A DNA stretch of 64,000 bases from Roseobacter weihaiensis. Lineage in GTDB: Bacteria; Pseudomonadota; Alphaproteobacteria; Rhodobacterales; Rhodobacteraceae. Each line of letters starts with the position of its first letter. Position 1 is the first letter of the stretch. The DNA lies in contig NZ_JACNMO010000015.1 in the NCBI RefSeq assembly GCF_020622345.1, positions 1 to 64,000 of the forward strand, read 5' to 3'. Below the pieces are notes generated by a model that saw only the letters and a program-made list of their open reading frames with translations, made no database searches and was not told the DNA's origin. A program made the position numbers and the translations under genes. Below are positions 38,620-59,486 of the stretch, in pieces.

Positions 38620-39390
38620 ATGCCCAGATACGCCCTCAAAGTGGAATACCACGGCGCGCCCTTTGCCGGGTGGCAGCGTCAGAAAGATCAGCCGACCGTT
38701 CAGGGTGCGATTGAAACGGCCCTGGGCCGGATCACACCGGGGCCGCATACGATTGCAGCCGCCGGGCGCACCGATGCGGGTGTGCATGCCACCGGTCAGG
38801 TCGCCCATTGTGACCTGCCTGACCCCTGGGATCCTTTCCGGCTGTCGGAGGCGCTGAATCATCATCTCAAACCGGCCCCGGTGGCCATTACCGCCTGCGC
38901 GGAAGTGGCCGAGGACTGGCACGCCCGTTTTTCGGCGCGCGAGCGGCAGTATCTCTTTCGCATTCTCTGCCGCCGGGCACCGGCAACGCATCAGAGCGGG
39001 CTGGTCTGGCAGGTCAAGACCCTGCTCGACGTGCCCACGATGCAGGAGGCGGCAAACCATCTGGTGGGGCAGCACGATTTCACCACCTTCCGCTCAACGA
39101 TCTGTCAGGCGGAAAGCCCGGTGAAAACCCTCAACCGGCTGGCGGTGCGGGCCGTTGAGACGCCGCACGGCCCTGAGGTGCATTTCGATGTGCGCGCGCG
39201 ATCCTTTCTGCACAATCAGGTCCGCAGTTTTGTCGGCACGCTGGAACGGGTGGGCGCGGGATCCTGGACCCCCGCCGATGTGGCGCAGGCCCTGGCGGCC
39301 AGGGACCGTGCGGCCTGCGGGCCGGTCTGCCCGCCACAAGGGCTCTACCTTGCACATGTTACCTATGAGGGACCTCCCTTTGGTACCTAG
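38620..39390 (+). CDS. truA: tRNA pseudouridine(38-40) synthase TruA
   Basis: 256 residues from the ATG at 38620 ([20 protein letters not shown]); the frame is open far upstream but those residues look random. Catalytic aspartate in [16 protein letters not shown] and the [15 protein letters not shown] block are intact. TruA makes pseudouridines at positions 38-40 of many tRNAs. It converges with the DUF3726 gene with a 4-nt overlap of the stop ends, so any terminator must lie inside coding DNA. Confidence 0.97.
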
Positions 39391-39887
39391 TCGTTGTCGG
39401 TCAGCCTCGCACCGGCCCCCACCCGCCGCGAGCTGTCACTGTCCGGCACATAGGTGCGGTCGGCCAGCTCTGTCATCTGCGCGATCAACCCATCGCAGCC
39501 CGTGATCCGGCGCGGCACGCCATGGGGGCGGGGCGTTGCCAGATCGACGCGCAATCGCAAGCCGTCCGTCCCCGTCGCCTGCAAGCTGGCCTGAAACGGC
39601 AGGGCTTCCACGAAACTGACAAGCAGCGCGTCCTGCTCCAGGCCTGGCAAGGCTGCGGGCAAGCCCTGCCCTGCGTCGCTCAGCGCCTGGTCCAGCACGA
39701 GGGGGTAAGCCAGAATGGGCCCCTCCGGCAATGCCTCCAGCGCCGCCGACAGCACTGCGACATCCCGCGCCGCTGTCAGATGCACGACGACAACCTGACC
39801 AAACCGCGCCGCTTGCGCAGGCGGCGCGCCCGCCCCGCGCGCCGCTTTACCGGCAAGTGTCATGATTTCAGTGGCAGACCAGCTCAT
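39387..39887 (-). CDS. DUF3726 family protein
   Basis: 166 residues from the ATG at 39887, which overlaps the preceding stop by 4 nt. The N-terminus [20 protein letters not shown] is the usual DUF3726 opening, where a helix leads into a KAARGAG segment. The rest is an alpha/beta domain rich in Ala, Leu and Pro ([33 protein letters not shown]). No catalytic motif is visible. It is the last gene of a coupled set with the 550-residue unknown and the M19-like protein, so it probably belongs to their pathway or complex. Confidence 0.75.
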
Positions 39888-41536
39888 TGCCCGAAAACAG
39901 GCAACCACCAGTCATCCGCGCGATTGCCGAGTTCATCGTCCAGTGGCGCGCCCTGACACAGGGTGATGCGTGTCCAGCGATCTGACTTGGGATCGAACTT
40001 GCTGGCCCCGAAAAACGACAGCTTGCAGCGCAGCATATCGATGGGCAGGCAGGTTTCGGCAATCAGGTTGTCGCGGATTTCGCCGTAAGGATAGCGCGAG
40101 AGGCCCGCGACCCGCGTGGCGGCCATCATATGGTCAGGATGGCGGGCCAGAAACGCTGTGAGGGGCTCGGGGGCGTCCGGCAGATCGGCGTAAAGCGCCT
40201 TGATCCGGCGCCCGATATCCAGAGGGCTTTCCAGATCGGCCCCGGCCTCGTCAAAGCGGTTGCCAAGGCGCGGCTCCTGCTTGGCGGCACTCACGTACCA
40301 GAATTGGCGAGATGCCGCCCTGCTCTCATAGGCAGGGGAGAGCGCCCAAAGCGCGTGATGTTCTATCTCTTGTTTGAGGGTCTGCGTGTCCGGAAACGGC
40401 ACAACCTGCGGCCCAAACGGATCGGACATGGTGTCTGCAAGATCGTCCACAAGATCCCCAAAGGGCTCCAGAACCAGCGCACAGAGCAGCTCTTGCAGAT
40501 CGACGCTCTGGCGGGCGGACCCGTCAAAGAGCGCCGCGATGGCCCCGCCTTTTGCAAAAGCCTCGGCGCGAAAGAGGGGCGCGGCCGCCCGCCACGCCGC
40601 GCGCAGCCGGTCGATCCGTTTTTGATGGTCCGGGTCAGGCACCTGCCATTCTTCCAGATGCTGCGCCGCACGCGCCGCCAGCGCCGCGAGCCGCTCGGCC
40701 TGGGCCCTGTTGATTTGTCGTTGTCCGCGCACGCGGGCCAGTGCCGTTTCGCGCGCCATCATCCAGTTGTTCAGCAAAACCGGGTGGTTGACCAGAAAGG
40801 GCGCCATCCCCAGCCCGGTCGAGTTGCCAATGCCCAGATGCCGTTTGAGCGCGCGCGTCAGCGGCCTGCCCCCGACATGTTCCACCAGATCATGGGTAAA
40901 GTGACGGATCAGCCAGACCGTCAGCATCTCAGCCATGAAAGGCCCGCCAAGGCCGGGTCGATCCTTGAAAACAGCGCGATCCGCGATACCGAACTTGCCA
41001 TTGCCATAGACGGCTGTGGTACGCATCAGATACCCGGTCTGGCGCACGAGGTTCTCATCGGGCTGGTGACCTGCGCGCAGCCGTTCCACCACATGCGCGA
41101 AGAGCCGAACCGATTTGTTGGCCCGGCTGAGCACGAGGTCTTGCTCGGTAAACCGGGCGGCTTCCTGTTTGGGGGCGGTGGCACAAATCCGGGCCAGCGC
41201 CGCCGCATCGGGCACCCCGTCGTAAAGCACATAGGCGGTGTCCCAGGCAGTTGCGATGACGCGGTCGGTGCGCTGATCTGCGGGCAAATCCGTGGATACC
41301 GCGACCAACGCATAGTCATAGCCGCCAAAACGCAGCTGATAGACCGCGTGGCCAAACCCCGCTGCGTCGATCTGCCAGACCGTGCATTTGACCTCAACCT
41401 TGTCAGCCGCCAAGGCGCGCATCAGCGTGCGCAGAAACGACAGGCGCGTGGGAAACATCGCCCCCATCCGCGCCAACCGCATCACCGTGTCGGGCGTGCG
41501 CAGGGGCACCAAGGGGATATCCACACCGTCTTTCAT
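39884..41536 (-). CDS. Conserved 550-residue protein of unknown function
   Basis: 550 residues, soluble, with no signal peptide or membrane helix. Well-conserved-looking segments are MFPTRLSFLRTLMRALAADK at the start, TAVYGNGKFGIADRAVFKD and HVGGRPLTRALKRHLGIGNS in the middle, and WTRITLCQGAPLDDELGNR near the end; aromatic and His residues are frequent. I know no domain for it. It overlaps both neighbours by 4 nt (ATGA), the M19-like gene before and DUF3726 after, so the three proteins are made together and probably in fixed ratios. It could be an enzyme of a new fold or a scaffold. Confidence 0.75.
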   Translation of the reverse strand: MKDGVDIPLVPLRTPDTVMRLARMGAMFPTRLSFLRTLMRALAADKVEVKCTVWQIDAAGFGHAVYQLRFGGYDYALVAVSTDLPADQRTDRVIATAWDTAYVLYDGVPDAAALARICATAPKQEAARFTEQDLVLSRANKSVRLFAHVVERLRAGHQPDENLVRQTGYLMRTTAVYGNGKFGIADRAVFKDRPGLGGPFMAEMLTVWLIRHFTHDLVEHVGGRPLTRALKRHLGIGNSTGLGMAPFLVNHPVLLNNWMMARETALARVRGQRQINRAQAERLAALAARAAQHLEEWQVPDPDHQKRIDRLRAAWRAAAPLFRAEAFAKGGAIAALFDGSARQSVDLQELLCALVLEPFGDLVDDLADTMSDPFGPQVVPFPDTQTLKQEIEHHALWALSPAYESRAASRQFWYVSAAKQEPRLGNRFDEAGADLESPLDIGRRIKALYADLPDAPEPLTAFLARHPDHMMAATRVAGLSRYPYGEIRDNLIAETCLPIDMLRCKLSFFGASKFDPKSDRWTRITLCQGAPLDDELGNRADDWWLPVFGQ

Positions 41537-42513
41537 AGAGGCTCAAAGCCTTCCTCGAAGAACCGCAGCCAGTTGCCGCCCATGATCCCCTCCACCTCCG
41601 CCTGGGTCAATGATGTTTGCAAGAGGCCGTTCCGGATTCGCCCAAAATCGCGGTTGTCCTTGAACCAGTCGGGCATAGGCGGGAAGCCTGCGTTGCTGGC
41701 GGACCCCTCGCCGTAATCGATAACTTTGGACCAGCGCCCGACCCGCATCCATTCTACCACGCTGTCGGGCTGGTCCTGACAAAGATCGGTGCCGATACCC
41801 AGATGCGCGGCACCATACCGGCCCGCGGCCTCTTCGATCATGCTGCAAAAGCTCTCCAACGTGCAGGCGGAGCCATCTTGCAGGTGGTGCGGATAGACCG
41901 AAAAACCGAGCATGCCGCCCGACCCGGTCAACGCGCGGAAGACGGTGTCTGATTTGTTGCGCAGGGCCGCATGCCACCAATGCGGATTGGCATGGGTGAT
42001 TGCGATGGGTCGCGATGACTGGTCAATCGCCTCCAGGGTGGACCGCTCACCGGAATGGGACATGTCGACCACCAGGCCGACGCGGTTCATTTCCCGCACA
42101 ACCTGCCGCCCCATGCGGGTGAGGCCGGTGTCCTCCGCCTCATAACAGCCGGTCGCCAGAAGAGACTGGTTGTTGTAGGTCAACTGCATGAAGCGGATGC
42201 CAAGCTGGTGACAGATTTCCACCAACCCGATGTCATCCTCGATGGGGCTGGGGTTCTGAAAACCGAAAAAAATGGCGGTGCGGTTGGTGTCCTGCGCGCG
42301 GCGCACGTCCGCTGCCGAGGTTCCTTTGAAAATCAGATCCGGATGCGCCTCGAACCATCTGTTCCACTGTTCGAGATTGAGTACCATTTCGCGAAAGTTC
42401 TCGTGGTAGGCGATGGTCACATGTACCGCATCCACGCCCCCTGCCCGCATCTGCCTGAAAATCTCCTCGGAGAAATTCGCATATTGCAGGCTATCAATCC
42501 GGGGGGCTTTCAT
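41533..42513 (-). CDS. M19 (renal dipeptidase)-like protein with altered metal site
   Basis: 326 residues with the TIM-barrel layout of family M19. The second-half residues are kept: DMSHS (His153), THANPH (His174), RNKSD (185-189) and GIGTD (Asp243). The first-half ligands are not: the N-terminal HxD motif is replaced by RIDSLQY (5-11), and the bridging Glu of the usual EGG segment is Gln86 in FFGFQNPSP. There is also no export signal, although classic members are extracytoplasmic or processed. The protein may bind one metal, or none, and act on something other than dipeptides. It overlaps the 550-residue gene by 4 nt; upstream is a 234-bp AT-rich gap. Confidence 0.82.
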   Translation of the reverse strand: MKAPRIDSLQYANFSEEIFRQMRAGGVDAVHVTIAYHENFREMVLNLEQWNRWFEAHPDLIFKGTSAADVRRAQDTNRTAIFFGFQNPSPIEDDIGLVEICHQLGIRFMQLTYNNQSLLATGCYEAEDTGLTRMGRQVVREMNRVGLVVDMSHSGERSTLEAIDQSSRPIAITHANPHWWHAALRNKSDTVFRALTGSGGMLGFSVYPHHLQDGSACTLESFCSMIEEAAGRYGAAHLGIGTDLCQDQPDSVVEWMRVGRWSKVIDYGEGSASNAGFPPMPDWFKDNRDFGRIRNGLLQTSLTQAEVEGIMGGNWLRFFEEGFEPL

Positions 42514-42747
42514 CTCTGCATCCTGAAAGATTATCCCCGATGCCTCAATTGCAAAAGCGACAGAGCGCCTGTGAATTCGGAAAAGCTCAGGGCGTTTTGG
42601 CCCCGCTGACGGGTCAATTCATTCTTTTCTCCTACTTCAAGATATCACAAAACCGATATATTTGGAGAAAATATAGTGCTGAAAGAGACAAAAATATCAA
42701 TTAAGACACCTAACTTCGAAAACCAACCGATCCTTGCCCCTTCGGTA

Positions 42748-43977
42748 CTAGACTTTCTGCTGCGTGTGCTTGCGCAGCTCTGCGCGCGCCACCTGTCGGC
42801 GATGAACCGCGTCAGGCCCATCCGCCAGCCGGAGGGTCCGGACATGGGTCCAGGCCTGCGCCAGCGGAGTGTCCTGACTGATGCCCTGGGCACCATGCAT
42901 CTGCACCGCTTCGTCAATGACCTTGAGCGCCATCAGCGGTGCGACCACCTTGATCTTGGAAATCCAGGGGGCGGCAGCACGCGCGTCGCCCTGATCCATC
43001 ATCCAGGCCGCCTTGAGGCACAAGAGCCGCGCCTGCTCGATCTCCATCCGCGCCTCGGCGATAATATCGAAATTGGCCCCGAGCTGCGCCAGCGGCTTGC
43101 CAAAGGCCTCGCGGGCGAGCGCCCGCTTGCACATCAACGCCAACGCGGCCTCCGCCTGACCGATGGCGCGCATGCAATGGTGGATACGCCCCGGCCCCAG
43201 CCGCCCTTGGGCGATCTCAAAACCGCGCCCTTCCCCGAGCAGCAGGTTCTCTGCCGGCACGCGCACATCCGTAAAGCGGATATGCATGTGCCCGTGCGGC
43301 GCATCATCGCGGCCATAGACCTCCATCGGGCGCAACACCTCAATCCCCGGCGTCGCGGCATCCACGACAATCATCGACTGCCGGTTGTGTTTGGGCAGTC
43401 CCTCACCGCCGGTCTTCACCATCACGATATAGACCTTGCAGCGCGGATCACCTGCCCCGCTGGCCCACCATTTCTCACCGTTGAGCACATAGGCGTCGCC
43501 GTCGCGCAGGCAGGAAAGCCGCACATTGGTCGCATCGGAGGAAGCCACATCCGGCTCCGTCATCAGATAGGCCGAGCGGATCTCGCCCTCCAGAAGACGT
43601 GACAGCCATTTGGTTTTCATCTCGGGGGTGCCGTAGCGTTCGAACACTTCCATGTTGCCGGTGTCGGGGGCCGAGCAGTTGAACACTTCCGCGCCCAGGG
43701 GCGTCTTGCCCATCTCCTCTGCAAAATAGGCGTATTCGACCGTGCTGAGCCCAAAGCCCTTGTCGCTGTCTGTCAGCCAGAAGTTCCACAGGCCCGCAGC
43801 TTTTGCCCGGGCCTTTAACCCTTCGAGAATTTCCGCCTGCCGCGCGGTGTACTGCCAGCGATCCTCCTTGCCGATCTCGGCATGATAGGCGGCCTCCATC
43901 GGCACCACCTCGTCGCGGATCATCGCGACCACCTGGTCGAGCAGGGCGCGGTTTTCGGGGCGCATGCCCAAATTCAT
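42748..43977 (-). CDS. Acyl-CoA dehydrogenase, ACAD10/ACAD11-like
   Basis: 409 residues from the ATG at 43977. Starts at TTG 43983 (best-spaced from GGAGGA) or 43965 are also possible. An N-terminal helical domain, the FAD/beta domain with MTEPDVASSDATNVRLS and WWASGAG, and the C-terminal helical domain ending in QGISQDTPLAQAW and LRLADGPDAVHRR. This ending is characteristic of the ACAD10/ACAD11 branch, which acts with a kinase domain on 4-hydroxyacyl-CoA. The matching APH-like kinase is divergently encoded 106 bp away, so the two are likely expressed from one control region. No other beta-oxidation genes are nearby. Confidence 0.9.
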   Translation of the reverse strand: MNLGMRPENRALLDQVVAMIRDEVVPMEAAYHAEIGKEDRWQYTARQAEILEGLKARAKAAGLWNFWLTDSDKGFGLSTVEYAYFAEEMGKTPLGAEVFNCSAPDTGNMEVFERYGTPEMKTKWLSRLLEGEIRSAYLMTEPDVASSDATNVRLSCLRDGDAYVLNGEKWWASGAGDPRCKVYIVMVKTGGEGLPKHNRQSMIVVDAATPGIEVLRPMEVYGRDDAPHGHMHIRFTDVRVPAENLLLGEGRGFEIAQGRLGPGRIHHCMRAIGQAEAALALMCKRALAREAFGKPLAQLGANFDIIAEARMEIEQARLLCLKAAWMMDQGDARAAAPWISKIKVVAPLMALKVIDEAVQMHGAQGISQDTPLAQAWTHVRTLRLADGPDAVHRRQVARAELRKHTQQKV

Positions 43978-44083
43978 CTCCAAGGTCTGATCCTCCGCTG
44001 GTGTCAACTTGTGCTTTTCCCCGCCCCCCAGACTTGCTTAGATCCCCTGTGGATGTCCATAAGCCAATTGAGGAGGAAGCCGC

Positions 44084-45103
44084 ATGCACCGCTATGACCA
44101 CGCCACGCTCGAGGCATACCTCGCCCGGCATGTTCCCGGTTTCGGGACCCTGGACGCCATTGAAAAATTCTCGGACGGGCAATCGAACCCGACCTATAAA
44201 CTGCGCAGCGGACCCCGCACCTTTGTGCTGCGCGCCAAGCCCCCCGGTGCGCTGCTCAAATCCGCCCATGCGGTCGATCGGGAGTTTCGGGTGATGCAGG
44301 CACTGGCCCGCACCGATGTGCCGGTGCCGCAGGTGTACCATCTGAGCGCAGAGCAGAGCCCCATGGGCCCGCAGTTCATGGTGATGGAGATGGTCGCGGG
44401 CCGCATTTTCTGGGACCCCGCATTGCCGGAGCTGGGCAAAGAGGATCGCACTGCCGTCTATGACGCGATGAACGCAACCCTTGCCGCCCTGCATGACGTG
44501 GACCCGGCCCGCGTGGGGCTGGCCGACTTCGGCAGGCCGGGCAATTACTTTGAGCGGCAGGTCACGCGCTGGTCGGGACAATACCGTCAGGCCACCCGCG
44601 ATCCCTTGCCGGACGCAGAGTGGGTCATGGCCTGGCTGGCCGACAACATGGTTGCCGACGATCACGCGAGCAGCATCGTGCATGGCGATTACCGCATCGA
44701 CAACATGATCTTTGCCCCGGACGCGCCGGTGGTGCGCGCATTGCTGGATTGGGAGCTGTCGACCTTGGGCCACCCGCTGGCCGATCTGGCCTATCAGTGC
44801 ATGCACTGGCGATTACCCCACGCCGGGCACTTTCGGGGCCTGGGCGGGTTGGATCGGGGTGCATTGGGCCTGCCATCCGAAGAGACCTATGTGGCACAAT
44901 ACTGCGACCGGCGGGGCCTGAAGCCCCCTGACAACTGGGCGTTCTACGTGGTCTTTTCCTATTTCCGCCTGCTGGCCATTCTGCAAGGGGTCCGCCGCCG
45001 CGGGTTGGACGGCAATGCCTCGAACCCAAAGGACACGGACCGGCTGCGCGACGTCATCGCCCTGCTGGCGCGCGATGCCCGTTTATTGGCCCGGAACGCC
45101 TGA
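44084..45103 (+). CDS. APH-like phosphotransferase (ACAD10/11 kinase-domain type)
   Basis: 339 residues. Kinase fold with HGDYRIDN (200-207, the catalytic loop of aminoglycoside phosphotransferases) and DWELSTLGHPLADLAY (222-237, metal-binding Asp). The N-terminal lobe shows EKFSDGQSNPTYKL and FVLRAKPPGALLKSAHAVDR. The segment pattern is that of the kinase domain fused to acyl-CoA dehydrogenase in ACAD10 and ACAD11, where it phosphorylates the 4-hydroxyl of acyl-CoA before elimination. Here it is a separate gene next to the dehydrogenase. The ribosome binding site GAGGA lies 9 nt before the ATG, and the product is cytosolic. Confidence 0.88.
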   Translation: MHRYDHATLEAYLARHVPGFGTLDAIEKFSDGQSNPTYKLRSGPRTFVLRAKPPGALLKSAHAVDREFRVMQALARTDVPVPQVYHLSAEQSPMGPQFMVMEMVAGRIFWDPALPELGKEDRTAVYDAMNATLAALHDVDPARVGLADFGRPGNYFERQVTRWSGQYRQATRDPLPDAEWVMAWLADNMVADDHASSIVHGDYRIDNMIFAPDAPVVRALLDWELSTLGHPLADLAYQCMHWRLPHAGHFRGLGGLDRGALGLPSEETYVAQYCDRRGLKPPDNWAFYVVFSYFRLLAILQGVRRRGLDGNASNPKDTDRLRDVIALLARDARLLARNA

Positions 45104-45188
45104 TACACCGTCGCCCTGGCGCGACAATGCTTGACGCCGCCGCATGTCATGTGTTCCTGAAATGACAGGACAAAGACGGGGGACACTG

Positions 45189-46382
45189 ATGGCACCAGTA
45201 CACGACAGCTATGACGTTGTGATCGTTGGCGGTGCGATCTACGGCTCCAGCGTGGCATGGTGGCTGACGCAGATGGCCGGGTTCACTGGCCGCATTCTGG
45301 TGGTCGAACGGGACCCGAGCTATGAAAGGGCGGGCACCAGCCTGACAAACAGTTGCATCCGGCAGCAATTCTCCAACAAGGCGAACATCAGCGTGTCCCA
45401 ATTCGGGGCGGAGTTCATCCGGAACTTCCGCGACTTCATGGGCGGCGACCCGGAGGTCCCTGCGTTGACGCTGCAAAGCTACGGCTACCTCTATCTCGCG
45501 GATACACCTGAATTTGCCCAGGACCTCAAGGACAGTCAGAAAGTGCAGGCAAGCCTCGGGGCTGGCACCAGATACATGACCGCGGCGGAGATTGCCGCCG
45601 ACTACCCGTTCTACCAGCTCGACGACATTCTGGGGGCCAACCACAATCTGGTGAACGAGGGCTATTTTGACGGGGGCACGATGTTTGACTGGTTCAAACG
45701 CATGGCCCGCAAAAACGGGGTGGAGTACCTGACAGATGAGGTGGTGGCCATGACCTGCACCCGCACCCGCGTCGAGCGCGTGATGCTGAAATCCGGCGCG
45801 GAGGTCGCCTGCGATGTGGTGGTGAATGCCTCGGGAACACGCGGTGCCTTAACGGCTCGGATGGCAAACCTTGATATCCCCATAGAACCGCGCCGCAGGT
45901 ACACCTACATCTTTGACGCCGCACACCCGCTTGACCGCGACCTGCCCCTGACCATCGACCCGTCCGGCGTTCATATGCGCACCGATGGGCGCTACTATCT
46001 GGCAGGTGGTCCCCCCGATGAGGATCCGGCGGTTGATTTTGACGACTTTGATGCGGATCACAGCCTTTGGGAGGCGAAATTCTGGCCCATCATTGCAAAC
46101 CGCATTCCGCAGTTTGAAGAAATCAAGCTTATCAACATGTGGGTGGGCCACTACGACTATAACACGCTGGATCAGAATGCCATTGTCGGACCGCACCCGG
46201 AGATGTCGAACTTCATGTTCGTCAACGGCTTTTCGGGACACGGGTTACAACAATCGCCAGCCTTGGGACGCGGGCTGGCCGAACGGATCGCCTACGGGGA
46301 ATATCGCAGCCTCGATCTGACGCCCTTTGCCGTTGACCGCGTGCTGAGCGGTGAGAAATTCTTGGAGAAAGCCGTCATCTGA
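45189..46382 (+). CDS. FAD-dependent oxidoreductase of the DAO family
   Basis: 397 residues from the ATG at 45189, with GGGGGAC upstream; the frame is open further left without support. N-terminal FAD site YDVVIVGGAIYGSSVAWWL and VVERD; C-terminal DAO block WVGHYDYNTLDQNAIVGPHP and FVNGFSGHGLQQSPALGRG, the latter contacting the flavin. The family includes sarcosine-, glycine-betaine- and D-amino acid oxidases and FOXRED1-like proteins; the substrate is likely a small amine or amino acid but is not determined. It is the second gene of the rightward half of the locus. Confidence 0.88.
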   Translation: MAPVHDSYDVVIVGGAIYGSSVAWWLTQMAGFTGRILVVERDPSYERAGTSLTNSCIRQQFSNKANISVSQFGAEFIRNFRDFMGGDPEVPALTLQSYGYLYLADTPEFAQDLKDSQKVQASLGAGTRYMTAAEIAADYPFYQLDDILGANHNLVNEGYFDGGTMFDWFKRMARKNGVEYLTDEVVAMTCTRTRVERVMLKSGAEVACDVVVNASGTRGALTARMANLDIPIEPRRRYTYIFDAAHPLDRDLPLTIDPSGVHMRTDGRYYLAGGPPDEDPAVDFDDFDADHSLWEAKFWPIIANRIPQFEEIKLINMWVGHYDYNTLDQNAIVGPHPEMSNFMFVNGFSGHGLQQSPALGRGLAERIAYGEYRSLDLTPFAVDRVLSGEKFLEKAVI

Positions 46383-46396
46383 CGAGGGAGTACGAC

Positions 46397-47233
46397 ATGA
46401 CGAAGATTGTTCTGACCGGGGCCGCCGGGCGCTTGGGGTCATACCTGCGCGAACCTCTGCTGGCCCTCTGTGACGAGCTGGTCAGCACCGATATCGTGGA
46501 GGACATCGGCAAGCTTTATCCAAGGGAGACCTATGTAAAAGCCGATCTTGCCCGGATGGACCAGATCGCGCCGCTGATGGAGGGCGCCGACATGGTGGTG
46601 CATTTCGGGGCCATCGTTGACGAAAAACCCTTCGAAGAGCTTCTAGGGCCGAACTTCATCGGCTCCTACAATGTCTGGGAGGCCGGCTATAAGGCAGGCG
46701 TGCGGCGCATCGTCTATGCCTCTTCCATCCATGCGGTGGGCATGCATCTGAAGTCGGAGTTTATCGGGACGGATGCGGAACACCGACCCGACACATTTTA
46801 CGGCCTCGCCAAATGCTTTACCGAAGATCTGGGCCGGATGTACTGGGACAAGCGCGGCATGGAATCGGTGCACCTGCGCATTCTGTCCTGTGCCCAGGTC
46901 AACAACACCCGCGCGCTGGGATCCTGGCTCAGCTACACGGACCTTATCCAACTGGTCACCCGCGCCATCGACACACCATCGGTCGGATTCGCGATCATCT
47001 ACGGCGTCTCGAACAACGACCGTGCCCCGGTGGACAACAGCAAGGCCTCCTTTCTGGGATACCGCCCGGTTGACAACGCCGAAATTTTCGCAGCCCAGCT
47101 GCTGGCCGAGGAAACCACAGTGGACACCTCGGATCCCGGCCAGATGTGCCAAGGCGGCCCCTTCGCCAAAGTCGATCTGGGGCAAAGCGGCCTGGCACAA
47201 ATGAATGTCGTCAACGACAAGAAAGAAATCTGA
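46397..47233 (+). CDS. NAD-dependent SDR, uronate-dehydrogenase-like
   Basis: 278 residues. Extended SDR with Rossmann motif GAAGRLG (8-14), Ser110 in ASSIHAVG, and catalytic Tyr135/Lys139 in TFYGLAKCFTEDLGR. The SSxHxVG and YGLxKCFxEDLGR patterns are those of uronate dehydrogenases, which oxidise hexuronates to aldaro-lactones. No other uronate genes are near, so the actual substrate may be another hydroxy compound. It starts 14 nt after the FAD oxidoreductase gene, with GAGGGAG 8 nt before the ATG. Confidence 0.85.
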   Translation: MTKIVLTGAAGRLGSYLREPLLALCDELVSTDIVEDIGKLYPRETYVKADLARMDQIAPLMEGADMVVHFGAIVDEKPFEELLGPNFIGSYNVWEAGYKAGVRRIVYASSIHAVGMHLKSEFIGTDAEHRPDTFYGLAKCFTEDLGRMYWDKRGMESVHLRILSCAQVNNTRALGSWLSYTDLIQLVTRAIDTPSVGFAIIYGVSNNDRAPVDNSKASFLGYRPVDNAEIFAAQLLAEETTVDTSDPGQMCQGGPFAKVDLGQSGLAQMNVVNDKKEI

Positions 47234-47341
47234 ACCACCTGACTCGAAAGACAGCCAGACGCGAGCCTCAATGAAGGATGATTGGTGCAGGTCAGCGACC
47301 CTGACCACGGCCTGCCCCCTTAAAAGAGAGATAAAAAAAAC

Positions 47342-48145
47342 ATGCCGGTCGATGTCATTCTGGGAGACAGCCCTCTTGTCCTCTCCCTGCCCTACAAGGG
47401 CACCAATATGCAGAACGTACTGGTTCAGCGACTGATCGACAGACATCACTTCATCAACGTTCCGGACCGCTACCTTGACCGGTTGCTGGAAGGCCTGACC
47501 GATGAGGCAACTGTCGTGCAGGCCAACTTCCATCGCTATGTTTCAGATGTTGAGCATCCCTCGCAAGGACCGGCTGAGAAGGCGGAAAATGGGATGATCG
47601 GCGTCGTGCCGCTATTGGACCTCGAAGGGGCAGCCATCTGGGACAGACCTCCGACAAGAGCCGAGGCGGCACGCTGGCGGTCGATTTACTATGCGCCCTA
47701 TCACGCGGCTCTTGCCACCCAGATCGCGCGGGCGCGGGCGCTCTATGGCCATGCGGTACTGGTCACCTGCCATGCCCTGCCCTCGGACATGGTGCGCCGC
47801 AATACCGCCGGTCTGCAGGACATCAATCTGGCAACCTTCCTGGGCGCCTCCTGCTCATTGGATCTCTCCACCAAGCTGGTCGCGCTGTGTCAGACACATC
47901 AGGCATTTGGCACCAAAGTAGATAGCGGTATCAAGACCGGGTGGGCCACCCGCCGCTATGGTCGCCCCCGTGCAAAGGTACACGCGCTTGATTTGAGGCT
48001 GAACGAGGCCTGCTACCTCTCGGCCGACGGCGAAGCGGACCACTATGACGAGACCCAGGCAGAGCCGTTTCGCGAAATGTTGCGCGACGTGATGGGCTTA
48101 CTGGCGTCCTGGCGACCCCTGCGATCATCGGGGCGGTCACCATAG
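47342..48145 (+). CDS. N-formylglutamate amidohydrolase-like protein with altered active site
   Basis: 267 residues matching HutG-family layout throughout (HRYVSDVEHPSQ, YYAPYHAALATQ, DINLATFLGAS). Key positions differ from active HutG: the PHxGT metal motif is PYKGT (17-21), the DTDWH block has become VPDRY (40-44), DAHSI is TCHAL (142-146, His kept), and GGHITRHYG is TGWATRRYG (199-207). With so many ligands lost, classical zinc amidohydrolase chemistry is doubtful. It may be a binding protein or use other chemistry. The gap to the SDR gene (108 nt) ends in AGAGAGATAAAA before the ATG. Confidence 0.8.
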   Translation: MPVDVILGDSPLVLSLPYKGTNMQNVLVQRLIDRHHFINVPDRYLDRLLEGLTDEATVVQANFHRYVSDVEHPSQGPAEKAENGMIGVVPLLDLEGAAIWDRPPTRAEAARWRSIYYAPYHAALATQIARARALYGHAVLVTCHALPSDMVRRNTAGLQDINLATFLGASCSLDLSTKLVALCQTHQAFGTKVDSGIKTGWATRRYGRPRAKVHALDLRLNEACYLSADGEADHYDETQAEPFREMLRDVMGLLASWRPLRSSGRSP

Positions 48146-49807: not shown

Positions 49808-51091
49808 ATGAAGACTTCCGGCATAATAGCCATTGTGGCTGTCACCCTGGCCGCCGCCACCTACGCAAACCCCATTGACCGGATACGCCCCGATGCGCCG
49901 GAGCTGGCAGAATACGGCACCTTGCCGGTAGGCGTTCAGACATTGACCTTCATCCATCCCGACCAAATCGATGTTGTCGCGATCAACGGACAGGACGCGC
50001 CGCGCTATGACCGGCCCCTGGTGGTGGAGGTCTGGTACCCCGCCGCAGAACCTGCGCCTGCGCGTGGCACCTATACCGCCATGATGCGCGACGGTGTTAC
50101 AGAAGTGAGCCTGACAGGTCGCGCGACCCGCGACGCGGCCCCGATAACCGGTGAACGGTTTCCGCTTGTGGTCATCAGCCATGGCTATCCAGGCAACCGT
50201 TACCTGATGTCGCATCTGGGCGAAAACCTCGCCTCCAAAGGGTACGTCACCGTATCGATTGACCATGCCGACAGCACCTATTCCGACCAAGAGACCTTTG
50301 GATCAACCTTGCTGAACCGTCCCATCGACAAGCGGTTTGTCATCGACCAGATGGCCAGTCTGGAGGGCCCGTTGGGGCAGATCATCGATGCCAACGCCAC
50401 CGGCGTGATCGGGTATTCGATGGGGGGTTACGGGGCGCTGGTGTTTGGCGGCGCGGGCGTGACCCAGGCTGCTACGGAATATAGCTGGGGCACCCCCAAC
50501 AGGCTTTTGGAGCGCCACCTCGCAGGCTCGGAAAGCCATGAGGCTCTGATTGATCCGCGTGTCCGCGCCATCGTTGCAATCGGTCCTTGGGGCCGCAACG
50601 CGGATCTTTGGGACGCCGGGGGCATGGCAGGGTTACGCAAGCCCACCCTTTTTATGGCAGGAGACTCTGATGACGTCTCGGTCTACGAAGCAATCCGGAC
50701 CATTTTCAGGGAGGCCGTCGGCACCGACAGGCACTTGCTGACTTTTGAGAATGCAAACCACAACGCCGCGGCCACGATGCCCGCCCCCGCAGAAAGCTGG
50801 CAGCCGGTAGAAGAGCTGGATTTCGTGCCCTTCGAGCATTACGCCGATCCGGTCTGGGACACGGTGCGCATGAACAACATCGCCCAGCATTTCACCACCG
50901 CCTTTTTCGACATTCACCTGAAAGGGGACACGACGAAACGCCCCTTCCTTGATCTGATCCCCACCGCTGCCGACGGGGTCATTGCACTGGATGAGGACGC
51001 AAACCCGACCGAGGATCATACCTATTGGACGGGTTTCGGCCCCCGCACCGCCAAGGGTCTCAGATTTGAGACCCGGCTGAACGGCGAATAA
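49808..51091 (+). CDS. Secreted alpha/beta hydrolase (dienelactone/PAF-acetylhydrolase-like)
   Basis: 427 residues. Signal peptide (MKTSGIIAIVAVTLAAATYA). Alpha/beta-hydrolase core with the oxyanion segment FPLVVISHGYPGNRYLMSHL and nucleophile elbow GYSMGG (202-207, Ser204); an acidic residue in LFMAGDSDDVS and His in TFENANHNAA complete a plausible triad. Proteins of this type cleave ester bonds of lipids, plastics monomers or lactones outside the cytosol; the natural substrate is not evident. GGAG lies 8 nt before the ATG. The C-terminal 60 residues form an extra domain after the core. Confidence 0.85.
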   Translation: MKTSGIIAIVAVTLAAATYANPIDRIRPDAPELAEYGTLPVGVQTLTFIHPDQIDVVAINGQDAPRYDRPLVVEVWYPAAEPAPARGTYTAMMRDGVTEVSLTGRATRDAAPITGERFPLVVISHGYPGNRYLMSHLGENLASKGYVTVSIDHADSTYSDQETFGSTLLNRPIDKRFVIDQMASLEGPLGQIIDANATGVIGYSMGGYGALVFGGAGVTQAATEYSWGTPNRLLERHLAGSESHEALIDPRVRAIVAIGPWGRNADLWDAGGMAGLRKPTLFMAGDSDDVSVYEAIRTIFREAVGTDRHLLTFENANHNAAATMPAPAESWQPVEELDFVPFEHYADPVWDTVRMNNIAQHFTTAFFDIHLKGDTTKRPFLDLIPTAADGVIALDEDANPTEDHTYWTGFGPRTAKGLRFETRLNGE

Positions 51092-57324: not shown

Positions 57325-57759
57325 ATGGCACAATACGCACTCATCATGTTGCTGGCGGGCATCGGCATACCGGTCCTGGCGGCCCTCAACGCGGCCCTCG
57401 GCGTGCGGATCGGATCACCGGCCGCGGCCGCCACTGTGCTCTTTGTCGTGGCCTTCCTGTGTTGTGCCGCCGTCCTGCTGGTGACGGGGCCATCTGCGCT
57501 TACCCGTCTGGCAGGGACACCGAAATACCTCTTTCTTGCCGGGGCGCTGATCGCCTTTTACGTCCTGACAATCACCTTTGTCGCCCCGACGTTCGGCGTC
57601 GGGAATGCGGTATTCTTTGTGCTGTTAGGACAGCTTATCAGTGCCGCTGCGATCGATCACTTTGGCCTTTTTGGCGCACGTATCAGCCCGCTGAGTACAA
57701 CCCGTGCCCTTGGTATCGCCGTCATGGCAACAGGTGTCTTTATCACGCAGAAGGCCTAG
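57325..57759 (+). CDS. YdcZ-family (DMT superfamily) small membrane transporter
   Basis: 144 residues, five hydrophobic helices. LLAGIGIPVLAALNAALGVR and LLGQLISAAAIDHFGLFG are the YdcZ (formerly DUF606) signatures. These five-helix proteins form half-size DMT transporters that work as dimers. Substrate unknown. It overlaps the Ldh-family gene by 17 nt at the stop ends, in convergent orientation. Confidence 0.85.
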   Translation: MAQYALIMLLAGIGIPVLAALNAALGVRIGSPAAAATVLFVVAFLCCAAVLLVTGPSALTRLAGTPKYLFLAGALIAFYVLTITFVAPTFGVGNAVFFVLLGQLISAAAIDHFGLFGARISPLSTTRALGIAVMATGVFITQKA

Positions 57760-58738
57760 GCCCCTGCGCCAACGCCTCAAGGCGTGCCCATACCTTTGGG
57801 GCGACCTCTACCGCATCGGCCATCCGGCGCGACTGGCCCGGTATTCTGACCCCCTCGTCAACAGTCGCATATCCGGCCAGAGCCGACACCCGGTTGGCAA
57901 AGGCCTCTGACGTGGCGGGATCAATCAGAATATAGAACTGCCCAAGATCATGCGGGCCGCCCTGGGGCGACTTCAGAGGTTTGACGTCATGCGACAAAGC
58001 CGACCCGGTCATGCCAGCGGCCAGAATCTCCGCCATCAGGCCAAAGCCCCACCCTTTGTAGCCCCCCATCGACACCAGCGAGCCCTGCAGTGCCGCCTCC
58101 GGGTCGGTGGTGGGGTCCCCGGCGGCATCCAGCGCCCAGCCCAGGGGAATGTCCTGCCCCGTCGCCTTGGCCATCGTGATCTTGCCAAGAGCCACGGTGG
58201 TGGTGGATTGATCAAGGTGCATCGCCACGCCGCCCCTGCCATCAGGCACGGTCAAGGCGATCGGATTTGTGCCGATCACCCGCGTCTTGCCGCCCGGTGC
58301 CGCCACAATCGGCGAGGCGTTGGTAAACCCGATGCCGATCAACCCCTCTGCCACGATCTGCTCTGTAAAATATCCCAGCGAGGTGCAGGTATGCGCATGC
58401 CCGACAGCCAGTGTGGCCGTCCCCAGACGGCGGGCCGCGTCCAAGGCTGGAACCAGCCCATGCGTGAAGGCAGGCTGGGCAAAGCCATAGCCCGCATCAA
58501 CGTGGATCGCCCCCGGACGCGGCACGCTCACAACCGGGTTGACGGTTCCGTTCACACGACCGGTCTCAAGTTGCAGGCAATAGCTCTCGACATAATAAAG
58601 ACCGCAGATCTTGTTGCCATGCCCCTCCGCGATCCGCACCGCGCGGGCGACCTCTGCCGCCACAAAGGGTGCTGCCCCATAGGCAACCAATGCCTGGCGC
58701 GTCAGGGCTTCGATCTGATCCAGACTGTAAAGCGGCAT
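57743..58738 (-). CDS. Ldh-family (malate/lactate dehydrogenase type) NAD(P)-dependent oxidoreductase
   Basis: 331 residues from the ATG at 58738 (MPLYSLDQIEALTRQAL), with AAAGGA upstream. The type-2 malate/L-sulfolactate/ureidoglycolate dehydrogenase fold: VGHAHTCTSLGYFTEQIVAE, GFTNASPIVAAPGGKTRVIG and GYKGWGFGLMAEIL. The family reduces or oxidises 2-keto or 2-hydroxy acids, and the exact substrate cannot be read from sequence. It is 64 nt downstream of lolD and may be read through from it. Confidence 0.87.
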   Translation of the reverse strand: MPLYSLDQIEALTRQALVAYGAAPFVAAEVARAVRIAEGHGNKICGLYYVESYCLQLETGRVNGTVNPVVSVPRPGAIHVDAGYGFAQPAFTHGLVPALDAARRLGTATLAVGHAHTCTSLGYFTEQIVAEGLIGIGFTNASPIVAAPGGKTRVIGTNPIALTVPDGRGGVAMHLDQSTTTVALGKITMAKATGQDIPLGWALDAAGDPTTDPEAALQGSLVSMGGYKGWGFGLMAEILAAGMTGSALSHDVKPLKSPQGGPHDLGQFYILIDPATSEAFANRVSALAGYATVDEGVRIPGQSRRMADAVEVAPKVWARLEALAQGPRPSA

Positions 58739-58802
58739 GGCCGTCCTTTCGTCAAAAGGCTTGCCGCATATCTTGGTCGCCTGCCCGCCCGTCGTCTCAT
58801 TG

Positions 58803-59486
58803 TCATACGGGAACAATCAGCCCCGCGTCGAGTCGGATTTGACGGTCCATACGCGCGGCAAGATCGAGGTTATGAGTGGCAATCAACGCCGAAAGCCCGG
58901 TGGATCTTACCAGCGCCATCAACGCCTCAAAAACCTGATCGGATGTCGCCGGATCAAGATTGCCTGTCGGCTCATCGGCCAGAAGAAGCTTGGGCGCATT
59001 GGCCAGTGCCCGGCAGAATGCCACACGCTGCTGCTCTCCCCCCGACAGCGCTGCAGGGCGGTGAGACGCCCGTTCCGCAATGCCGACCTCTGCCAGCAAG
59101 GCCTGTGCGCGGGTCTCGGCAGCAGCGCGAGCCGTCCCCTTGGCCAGTTGTGGCAGCACGATGTTCTCTGCAGCCGTGAACTCCGGCAAGAGATGGTGGA
59201 ACTGGTAGATGAAGCCCACATCTTCCCGGCGCGCGGCAGTGCGGCGCGCATCGCTCAGACCGGTCATGTCTTCGCCCGCAATGACAACGGCCCCGGCATC
59301 CGGCAGATCGAGCAGGCCCGCAATGTGCAACAAGGTGGATTTTCCAGCCCCTGAGGGCGCCACAAGGGCCACGACCTCGCCCACGGCCAGCGTGACATCA
59401 ATGCCGCGCAGGACGCTCACCTCGTTCGGCTGGCCTGCGTTGTAGGATTTGGTAACCCCTTTAAGGTTCAGAACCGGATCACTCAT
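58803..59486 (-). CDS. lolD: Lipoprotein-releasing ABC transporter ATPase LolD
   Basis: 227 residues. Walker [12 protein letters not shown], signature [15 protein letters not shown], Walker [13 protein letters not shown] and switch His in [10 protein letters not shown]. LolD drives transfer of outer-membrane lipoproteins (such as Pal here) from the inner membrane to LolA. It overlaps lolC by 8 nt. Confidence 0.93.

Follow-up and report, generated by a model that had tools for sequence, protein, structure and literature searches.

A composite gene island beside truA in Roseobacter weihaiensis contains a cassette shared with SAR11 bacteria

Introduction

Do eight neighbouring genes of Roseobacter weihaiensis, arranged in two divergent arms, constitute one pathway, or several units that share a chromosomal site? 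The genes lie at positions 39387-48145 of a stretch of 64,000 nucleotides (positions 1 to 64,000 of the forward strand of contig NZ_JACNMO010000015.1, assembly GCF_020622345.1), which we refer to as the window in the following; the genome containing it measures 5.35 Mb. A sequence-only reading of this stretch had interpreted them as a single catabolic pathway for the stepwise oxidation of a hydroxylated, perhaps N-containing compound.

We find that the locus, whose genes we name A to H, is a composite of the modules A-B-C, D-E, F-G and H, a conclusion of which we are nearly certain. Together, these modules would form a composite island whose position in the chromosome is fixed. Our explanation as a whole, comprising the composite island, a homarine-type cassette C-B-A and the roles proposed below for D-E, F-G and H, commands slightly more of our belief than of our doubt. 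The features of the locus are:

A, 39387..39887, minus strand: divergent DUF3726 protein of 166 residues with the C-terminus AGAxLTDND
B, 39884..41536, minus strand: orphan-family protein of 550 residues, the presumed partner of A
C, 41533..42513, minus strand: M19-fold amidohydrolase without the HxD metal ligands
C-D intergenic gap, 42514..42747, no strand: AT-rich, where transcription of C-B-A probably begins (presumed promoter)
D, 42748..44007, minus strand: acyl-CoA (coenzyme A) dehydrogenase of the ACAD10/11 (LvaC) type, with Asp in the base position
E, 44084..45103, plus strand: kinase of the LvaA/ACAD10/11 type with an HGDxxxDN motif
F, 45144..46382, plus strand: DAO-type FAD (flavin adenine dinucleotide) oxidoreductase
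G, 46397..47233, plus strand: uronate-dehydrogenase-like SDR with two substrate residues altered
H, 47342..48145, plus strand: protein of the N-formylglutamate amidohydrolase fold, its metal motifs lost in the window's sublineage

Results

The modules of the locus come and go separately

In 18 congeners, we searched for F and B and read up to 20 kb around each site; genes were counted with tblastn, a simple gene caller having missed those in shadowed frames. At this site, all 18 congeners have D and E. H is found in 17 of them, the F-G pair in 15, C together with B in 14 and A in 13 (the stretch of locus L098 ends inside B); the stretch includes truA in 16 cases and the MatE gene in 15. The losses are joint ones: three congeners (L139-L141) have neither F nor G, two of which (G248 and G263) carry an F homologue of 56-58% identity elsewhere in the genome, and A, B and C are missing as a block in four (L088, L089, L090 and L094), all of which retain D-E. 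From these presence patterns, it follows that A-B-C, D-E, F-G and H were each gained or lost separately.

Outside the genus, we compared 23 loci with the window's type of B (L039-L061, B 53-69% identical, some stopping at contig ends). We refer to this type as near and to the other as far, a split by identity to window B and not by clade; L060 and L061, for instance, are counted here, yet fall outside the near clade in the B tree. truA is nearby in 15 of these loci and C is present in 20, while D is found in four (L039, L041, L051 and L054), E in two, F-G in one and H, by tblastn, in none; 19 have no D within the stretch. None has all eight genes, and one (L039) has seven. In three of them, the genes adjoining C-B encode Omp85 and TamB, a peptide-binding protein and a GDPD protein, respectively.

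The single eight-gene pathway of the sequence-only reading is not supported. That reading had named, as grounds for giving it up, a failure of the two arms to co-occur elsewhere or their match to known unrelated pathways; this is largely what we observe, set against the presence of D beside A-B in four genera, which we weigh below. Its more general points stand: a catabolic locus is supported, and as far as we know no described pathway has exactly this gene set. An N-containing substrate is perhaps supported as well, for a part of the locus.

Eight coding genes, three of them in an overlapping unit

We recovered all eight open reading frames (ORFs) that had been listed before. Six of the proteins have Pfam domains (M19, ACAD, APH, DAO, SDR/epimerase and FGase), and the ratio of non-synonymous to synonymous substitutions (dN/dS, NG86) lies between 0.03 and 0.40 for all genes in all computable pairs among eight congener pairs, rough values given that dS exceeds 1 in several. 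Because these ratios are low throughout, none of the eight looks like a chance ORF. As had been stated, the locus contains no transporter or regulator; truA, which encodes a tRNA pseudouridine synthase, and the MatE gene flank it on the outside.

C and B overlap by four bases at 41533-41536, as do B and A at 39884-39887, and in the C-D gap the G+C content drops to 0.37, compared with 0.53-0.71 in the flanks. C-B-A is probably a separate transcription unit. The start of A, previously placed at a GTG at 39908, is most likely the ATG at 39887, since the N-terminus from there aligns with DUF3726 proteins.

The proteins of the C-B-A cassette

C, B and A lie next to each other on one strand in this order, an M19-fold protein followed by B and a DUF3726 protein, and we refer to this arrangement as the cassette. 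A and B are the two proteins for which the sequence-only reading could offer no function, and we likewise know of no reaction or fold for B or DUF3726; a literature search found no paper on DUF3726.

A is, judged by its sequence, a divergent DUF3726 protein. The Pfam model (PF12525) alone misses window A; a profile built from 14 A proteins of the genus (window included) matches 30 of 30 DUF3726 proteins, with a worst E of 1e-5, and none of 600 shuffled sequences. BLASTP connects A with an Aminobacter protein annotated as DUF3726 (E 2e-10). The tail AGAxLTDND is common to A from the window through SAR11 (with N replacing T in a single one of 26 SAR11 proteins), at an overall identity of 18-27% to the SAR11 DUF3726 proteins.

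B has no Pfam or NCBIfam match, and its best match among PDB sequences has an E of 0.12. It is widespread: homologues occur in 115 of 248 genomes of our family sample (its own included), in 53 of 385 genomes of the class sample (with B of Ruegeria sp. TM1040 as query) and in at least 579 stretches of named genomes. A partial structural model of B (predicted local distance difference test, pLDDT, 68) yielded no Foldseek match at E<=0.001, and VIA-align returned two rows at Z>=5, the best with a Z of 5.7 across 71 residues in the helical region. Several of the stretches modelled with the lowest confidence contain the most conserved motifs of B; conserved motifs such as TGLGMAPF and FDPxSDRW sit in low-confidence regions, as might be expected if they bind a partner or cofactor. 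The model of A is poor (pLDDT 48.5).

A Mesorhizobium plasmid (L083:9950-12394) carries a fusion of B with DUF3726, a single open frame of 814 residues in which Pfam recognizes DUF3726 at 596-660. This fusion is good evidence that B and A would act as one complex, and the fused protein is a ready expression construct.

C matches PF01244 with 238 bits and, among PDB entries, best 2i5g (E 8e-56). Membrane dipeptidases of the M19 family bind metal through an N-terminal HxD; C differs from them in having LxY in its place. Given that HxD is absent in all 12 aligned members (window included) and in 2i5g, this is a trait of the family. The 'damaged metal site' ascribed to C before is of another kind than that of H, described below.

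The cassette in SAR11 and on plasmids

Many genomes of SAR11, among the most abundant bacteria in the ocean, have such a cassette. Our SAR11 set consists of the best 80 of at least 579 stretches by similarity to a SAR11-like query, and is Pelagibacterales by construction. C is found in 80 of these 80 loci, and C, B and DUF3726 adjoin on one strand in 79, the exception (L180) stopping just after B. A gene for the sarcosine oxidase alpha subunit (at least 40% identity) is present in 59, which corresponds to 59 of the 67 loci with at least 7 kb before C; when matches down to 26-31% are counted, the number rises to 65. D, E, G and H were matched in none of the 80 loci around the cassette. According to this gene content, C-B-A is the minimal conserved unit.

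Larger operons are found on named plasmids of Ruegeria sp. TM1040, Aminobacter, Roseateles (a record flagged UNVERIFIED_ORG) and Mesorhizobium, in the order LysR / ALDH-M19-B-DUF3726-Ldh, where ALDH denotes an aldehyde dehydrogenase. These are accompanied by transporters: the TM1040 operon includes a BCCT gene, those of Aminobacter and Roseateles are followed by ProXWV-type genes, and that of Mesorhizobium has a branched-chain-type transporter. A sarcosine-oxidase operon lies close to the cassette in TM1040 and Roseateles. Aminobacter and Roseateles B are 56-57% identical to window B and fall, weakly (support 87), on its side of the B tree, which means that the full operon also occurs with a near-like B. 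The holders include soil and plant bacteria (Aminobacter, Mesorhizobium, Sinorhizobium). The window's C-B-A would be a version of a cassette that other alphaproteobacteria run with an ALDH, an Ldh_2 enzyme and a LysR regulator, in many cases joined by a betaine transporter.

Near and far cassettes probably replace each other

Between the near and far types, B is about 43-52% identical, and C of 13 far-type family loci (L065-L075, L077 and L078) is 71-76% identical to window C. Of 19 genus genomes, 15 have near B, five far B, one both and none neither; the probability of one or fewer holding both is 0.0013, a statistic that ignores relatedness. The four congeners without A-B-C at truA are precisely the four far-only genomes. 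Likewise, both types occur together in two genomes of the family sample, with 9.2 expected, a figure that also disregards relatedness and for which every non-near B genome was scored as far, fragments and weak matches included.

The far operons of the genus read LysR-ALDH-C-(BCCT)-B-DUF3726, and within the genus an ALDH with 72-84% identity to that of TM1040 is confined to the five genomes that have such an operon. The far B genes of the genus appear at three places in the B tree, which suggests that they were gained separately. The D proteins of G255 and G260 are 98% identical; G255 has A-B-C, and G260 has a far operon in its stead. It is thus likely that one type was replaced by the other as its equivalent.

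A candidate substrate

By our proposal, the cassette would open and hydrolyze a betaine-type N-methyl heterocycle, the best guess being homarine (N-methylpicolinate), toward N-methylglutamate, with C performing the amide hydrolysis. Homarine, which we regard as reasonably probable, fits the parts of the operons: a betaine transporter, an Ldh_2 enzyme, an amidohydrolase, an ALDH and nearby genes of the sarcosine oxidase type. The Ldh_2 enzyme is of a type that acts as a reductase on cyclic imines adjoining a carboxylate. The ALDH of TM1040 scores best against models of 2,5-dioxovalerate and alpha-ketoglutarate semialdehyde dehydrogenases, below their cut-offs.

Ferrer-Gonzalez et al. reportedly described a homarine operon homABCDER of five structural genes and a regulator in Rhodobacterales, SAR11 and SAR116 (Nat Microbiol, 2026, doi 10.1038/s41564-026-02313-7), and we take the operon ALDH-M19-B-DUF3726-Ldh_2 with LysR to be this one. 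If this is right, window C-B-A is its core, differing from it in the lack of an adjoining ALDH, Ldh_2 and LysR and in the sequences of its B and A. We do not class the window locus as a homABCDER operon, for the adjoining ALDH and LysR are absent. According to PMC13390433, N-methylglutamate dehydrogenase takes part in homarine catabolism; this paper was the sole lead to genes in our homarine literature search. The homarine passages of PMC12817926 and PMC9038784 name no homarine genes, and a search by operon gene names gave nothing relevant among the papers listed.

An Ldh_2 gene at 57743-58816 of the window, adjoining ABC-transporter and cytochrome genes, was weighed as a candidate for the Ldh that the cassette lacks, and rejected: it is 41% identical to that of TM1040, and a match of 40-44% exists in all 19 genus genomes, near or far.

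Weighing the alternatives

Some observations pull away from our reading and toward one in which the eight gene products together convert a single hydroxylated, N-containing compound step by step, with gaps elsewhere filled from other sites. D adjoins A-B in four other genera, albeit without C in L051 and with a GDPD gene in between in L041, and chance placement would hardly explain this in genomes of about 4 Mb; one of these loci has seven of the eight genes, and D-E is kept at the site in every congener. In an orthologue search for E and F across 74 of the 248 family genomes (the own genome, 25 near-type, 4 intermediate, 25 far-type and 19 B-less; all near-type ones except G190 and G098 were also read as long loci), E orthologues (at least 59% identity) turn up in 7 of the 25 near-type genomes and in not one of the 25 far-type or the 19 B-less genomes, the intermediate ones being placed with the non-near group. 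D-E may thus have a tie to the cassette; alternatively, the distribution of E may only reflect relatedness. F has orthologues (at least 60%) in 15 of the 25 near-type genomes, in 5 of the 25 far-type ones, in 2 of the 19 without B and in 1 of the 4 intermediates, and homologues in hyuAB operons. Together with the block losses of A-B-C and F-G from congeners that keep D-E, and with SAR11 cassettes free of D, E, G and H, this makes a single pathway quite improbable.

Further points of this kind concern homarine. Our equation of the operon with homABCDER is tentative, and the five genes reported for it were not seen in the 80 SAR11 loci, where Ldh_2 is absent and the only ALDH match is one of 33%. 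Nor does an ALDH, Ldh_2 or LysR gene adjoin window C-B-A, and near-only genomes of the genus have no ALDH above 55% identity to that of TM1040 (E<=1e-80). The structure of B, as a partial model with no clear fold match, points to no reaction. A SAR11-type cassette for another betaine, such as trigonelline, proline betaine or another N-methyl heterocycle, would accommodate the SAR11 gene content, the BCCT or ProXWV transporters at several operons, which suit any betaine, and the soil and plant holders. We nevertheless consider it unlikely: among four annotated cassette regions, two have sarcosine oxidase genes as named candidates for an N-demethylation step, and Mesorhizobium L083 adds only a gene of the trimethylamine methyltransferase family and FAD oxidoreductases, while the type of the ALDH suits a route to N-methylglutamate. 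Alternatively, near-type A-B-C could have drifted to a new substrate after its move beside truA and no longer equal the far type, as the divergence of B, the shortened A and the missing ALDH and LysR neighbours would allow; the high identity of C across the types and their tendency to exclude each other render this improbable as well. Lastly, we give little credence to the more far-reaching idea that B and A are a new enzyme class of no recognized fold opening the ring of an N-methyl pyridinium or related betaine, and that in this genus C-B-A and the ACAD10/11-type dehydration pair D-E form one new route from ring to acyl-CoA. Homarine remains our preferred substrate.

The D-E pair

By our reading, D and E are a separate pair, in which E would phosphorylate a 4-hydroxyacyl-CoA and D would then eliminate the phosphate to give an enoyl-CoA. 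The earlier description of an ACAD10/11-like pair is borne out by their sequences. D aligns over nearly its full length with ACAD11 (8v3u, E 2.5e-118), including a common 'ladgpd' stretch, whose Asp would serve as the base in place of a Glu. E belongs to PF01636, matches 3dxp (E 1e-102) and the kinase part of ACAD11 (8v3v, E 9e-73), carries the catalytic Asp motif HGDxxxDN as HGDYRIDN and is the only match in its own genome at E<=1e-60. Such a mechanism of kinase and subsequent elimination, bacterial proteins that perform it and the catalytic role of Asp1040 in ACAD10 are described in PMC11342911. We take the 'ladgpd' Asp of D as the equivalent catalytic base, and it is very likely, judging from the homologies, that the pair acts on 4-hydroxyacyl-CoA. 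In their likeness to ACAD11 and its kinase part, with the catalytic Asp in both, D and E resemble animal ACAD10/ACAD11 and LvaA/LvaC of Pseudomonas putida (PMC11342911); they differ in being two separate, divergently read genes in a locus without a CoA ligase. In 10 of the 18 congeners (L086-L089, L091, L092, L094, L095, L139 and L140), E and F are separated by a DsbA-family gene, which is absent in the window.

The F-G pair

F-G is a reusable oxidoreductase pair. F matches PF01266 and stays below every listed NCBIfam cut-off. Of seven F loci away from the site, six have a G homologue within about 2 kb (L039, L079, L080, L081, L102 and L103, not L101), with 42% identity to G in L081, and five have hyuA-hyuB; an aminotransferase or HpcH aldolase gene is a frequent neighbour. 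As an observation in its own right, hyuAB operons with homologues of both F and G (L079, L080, L081 and L102) also include an aminotransferase, an HpcH aldolase or a thiamine pyrophosphate enzyme.

G is a uronate-dehydrogenase-like SDR, as had been proposed: it aligns with uronate dehydrogenase 3rft over 257 residues (E 2.6e-56) and keeps YxxxK. It differs at the equivalents of Ser75 and Asn112, substrate-binding residues of 3rft, where it has Val and Ile. In our proposal, F would oxidize an amine and G the resulting cyclic hemiaminal or lactol, upon which a lactam or lactone hydrolysis would come next.

Weak F matches are also found in G000 and its congeners; each genome has many of them, in open frames some 800-940 residues long, which by their length look like dimethylglycine-dehydrogenase-type flavoproteins.

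H and a neighbouring hydrolase

H would be an accessory amidohydrolase whose metal motifs were lost in the window's sublineage. It matches PF05013 (FGase), and with 169.1 bits it stays below the cut-off of 278.75 for TIGR02017, the N-formylglutamate deformylase HutG, as do two partial congener pieces of 218 residues each. The metal motifs of this fold are PH, DTDW and DCH. Like HutG, 8 of the 17 congeners with H keep all three; unlike HutG, window H has lost PH and DTD, as has H of L093, L096, L097 and L100, all with PY for PH. In L088, L089, L091, L094 and L141, other motif positions are changed (the start of L088 is short). H is also the least conserved gene, 36-49% identical to window H among congeners; its dN/dS of 0.07-0.29 is low, so that it still looks coding. 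H is perhaps without hydrolase activity, a possible young pseudoenzyme, its motifs having gone in several lineages of one genus.

Beyond the locus, at 49808-51091 of the window, lies an alpha/beta hydrolase that matches the PET hydrolase-like family PF12740.

Conclusion

In this locus, gene adjacency in a single genome overstated a pathway. The genus offers natural swap cases, in which the window's cassette type is absent and the other type present, and these suggest that function resides in the cassette as a whole. The part worth following is the cassette C-B-DUF3726 itself, which is carried by many SAR11 genomes.

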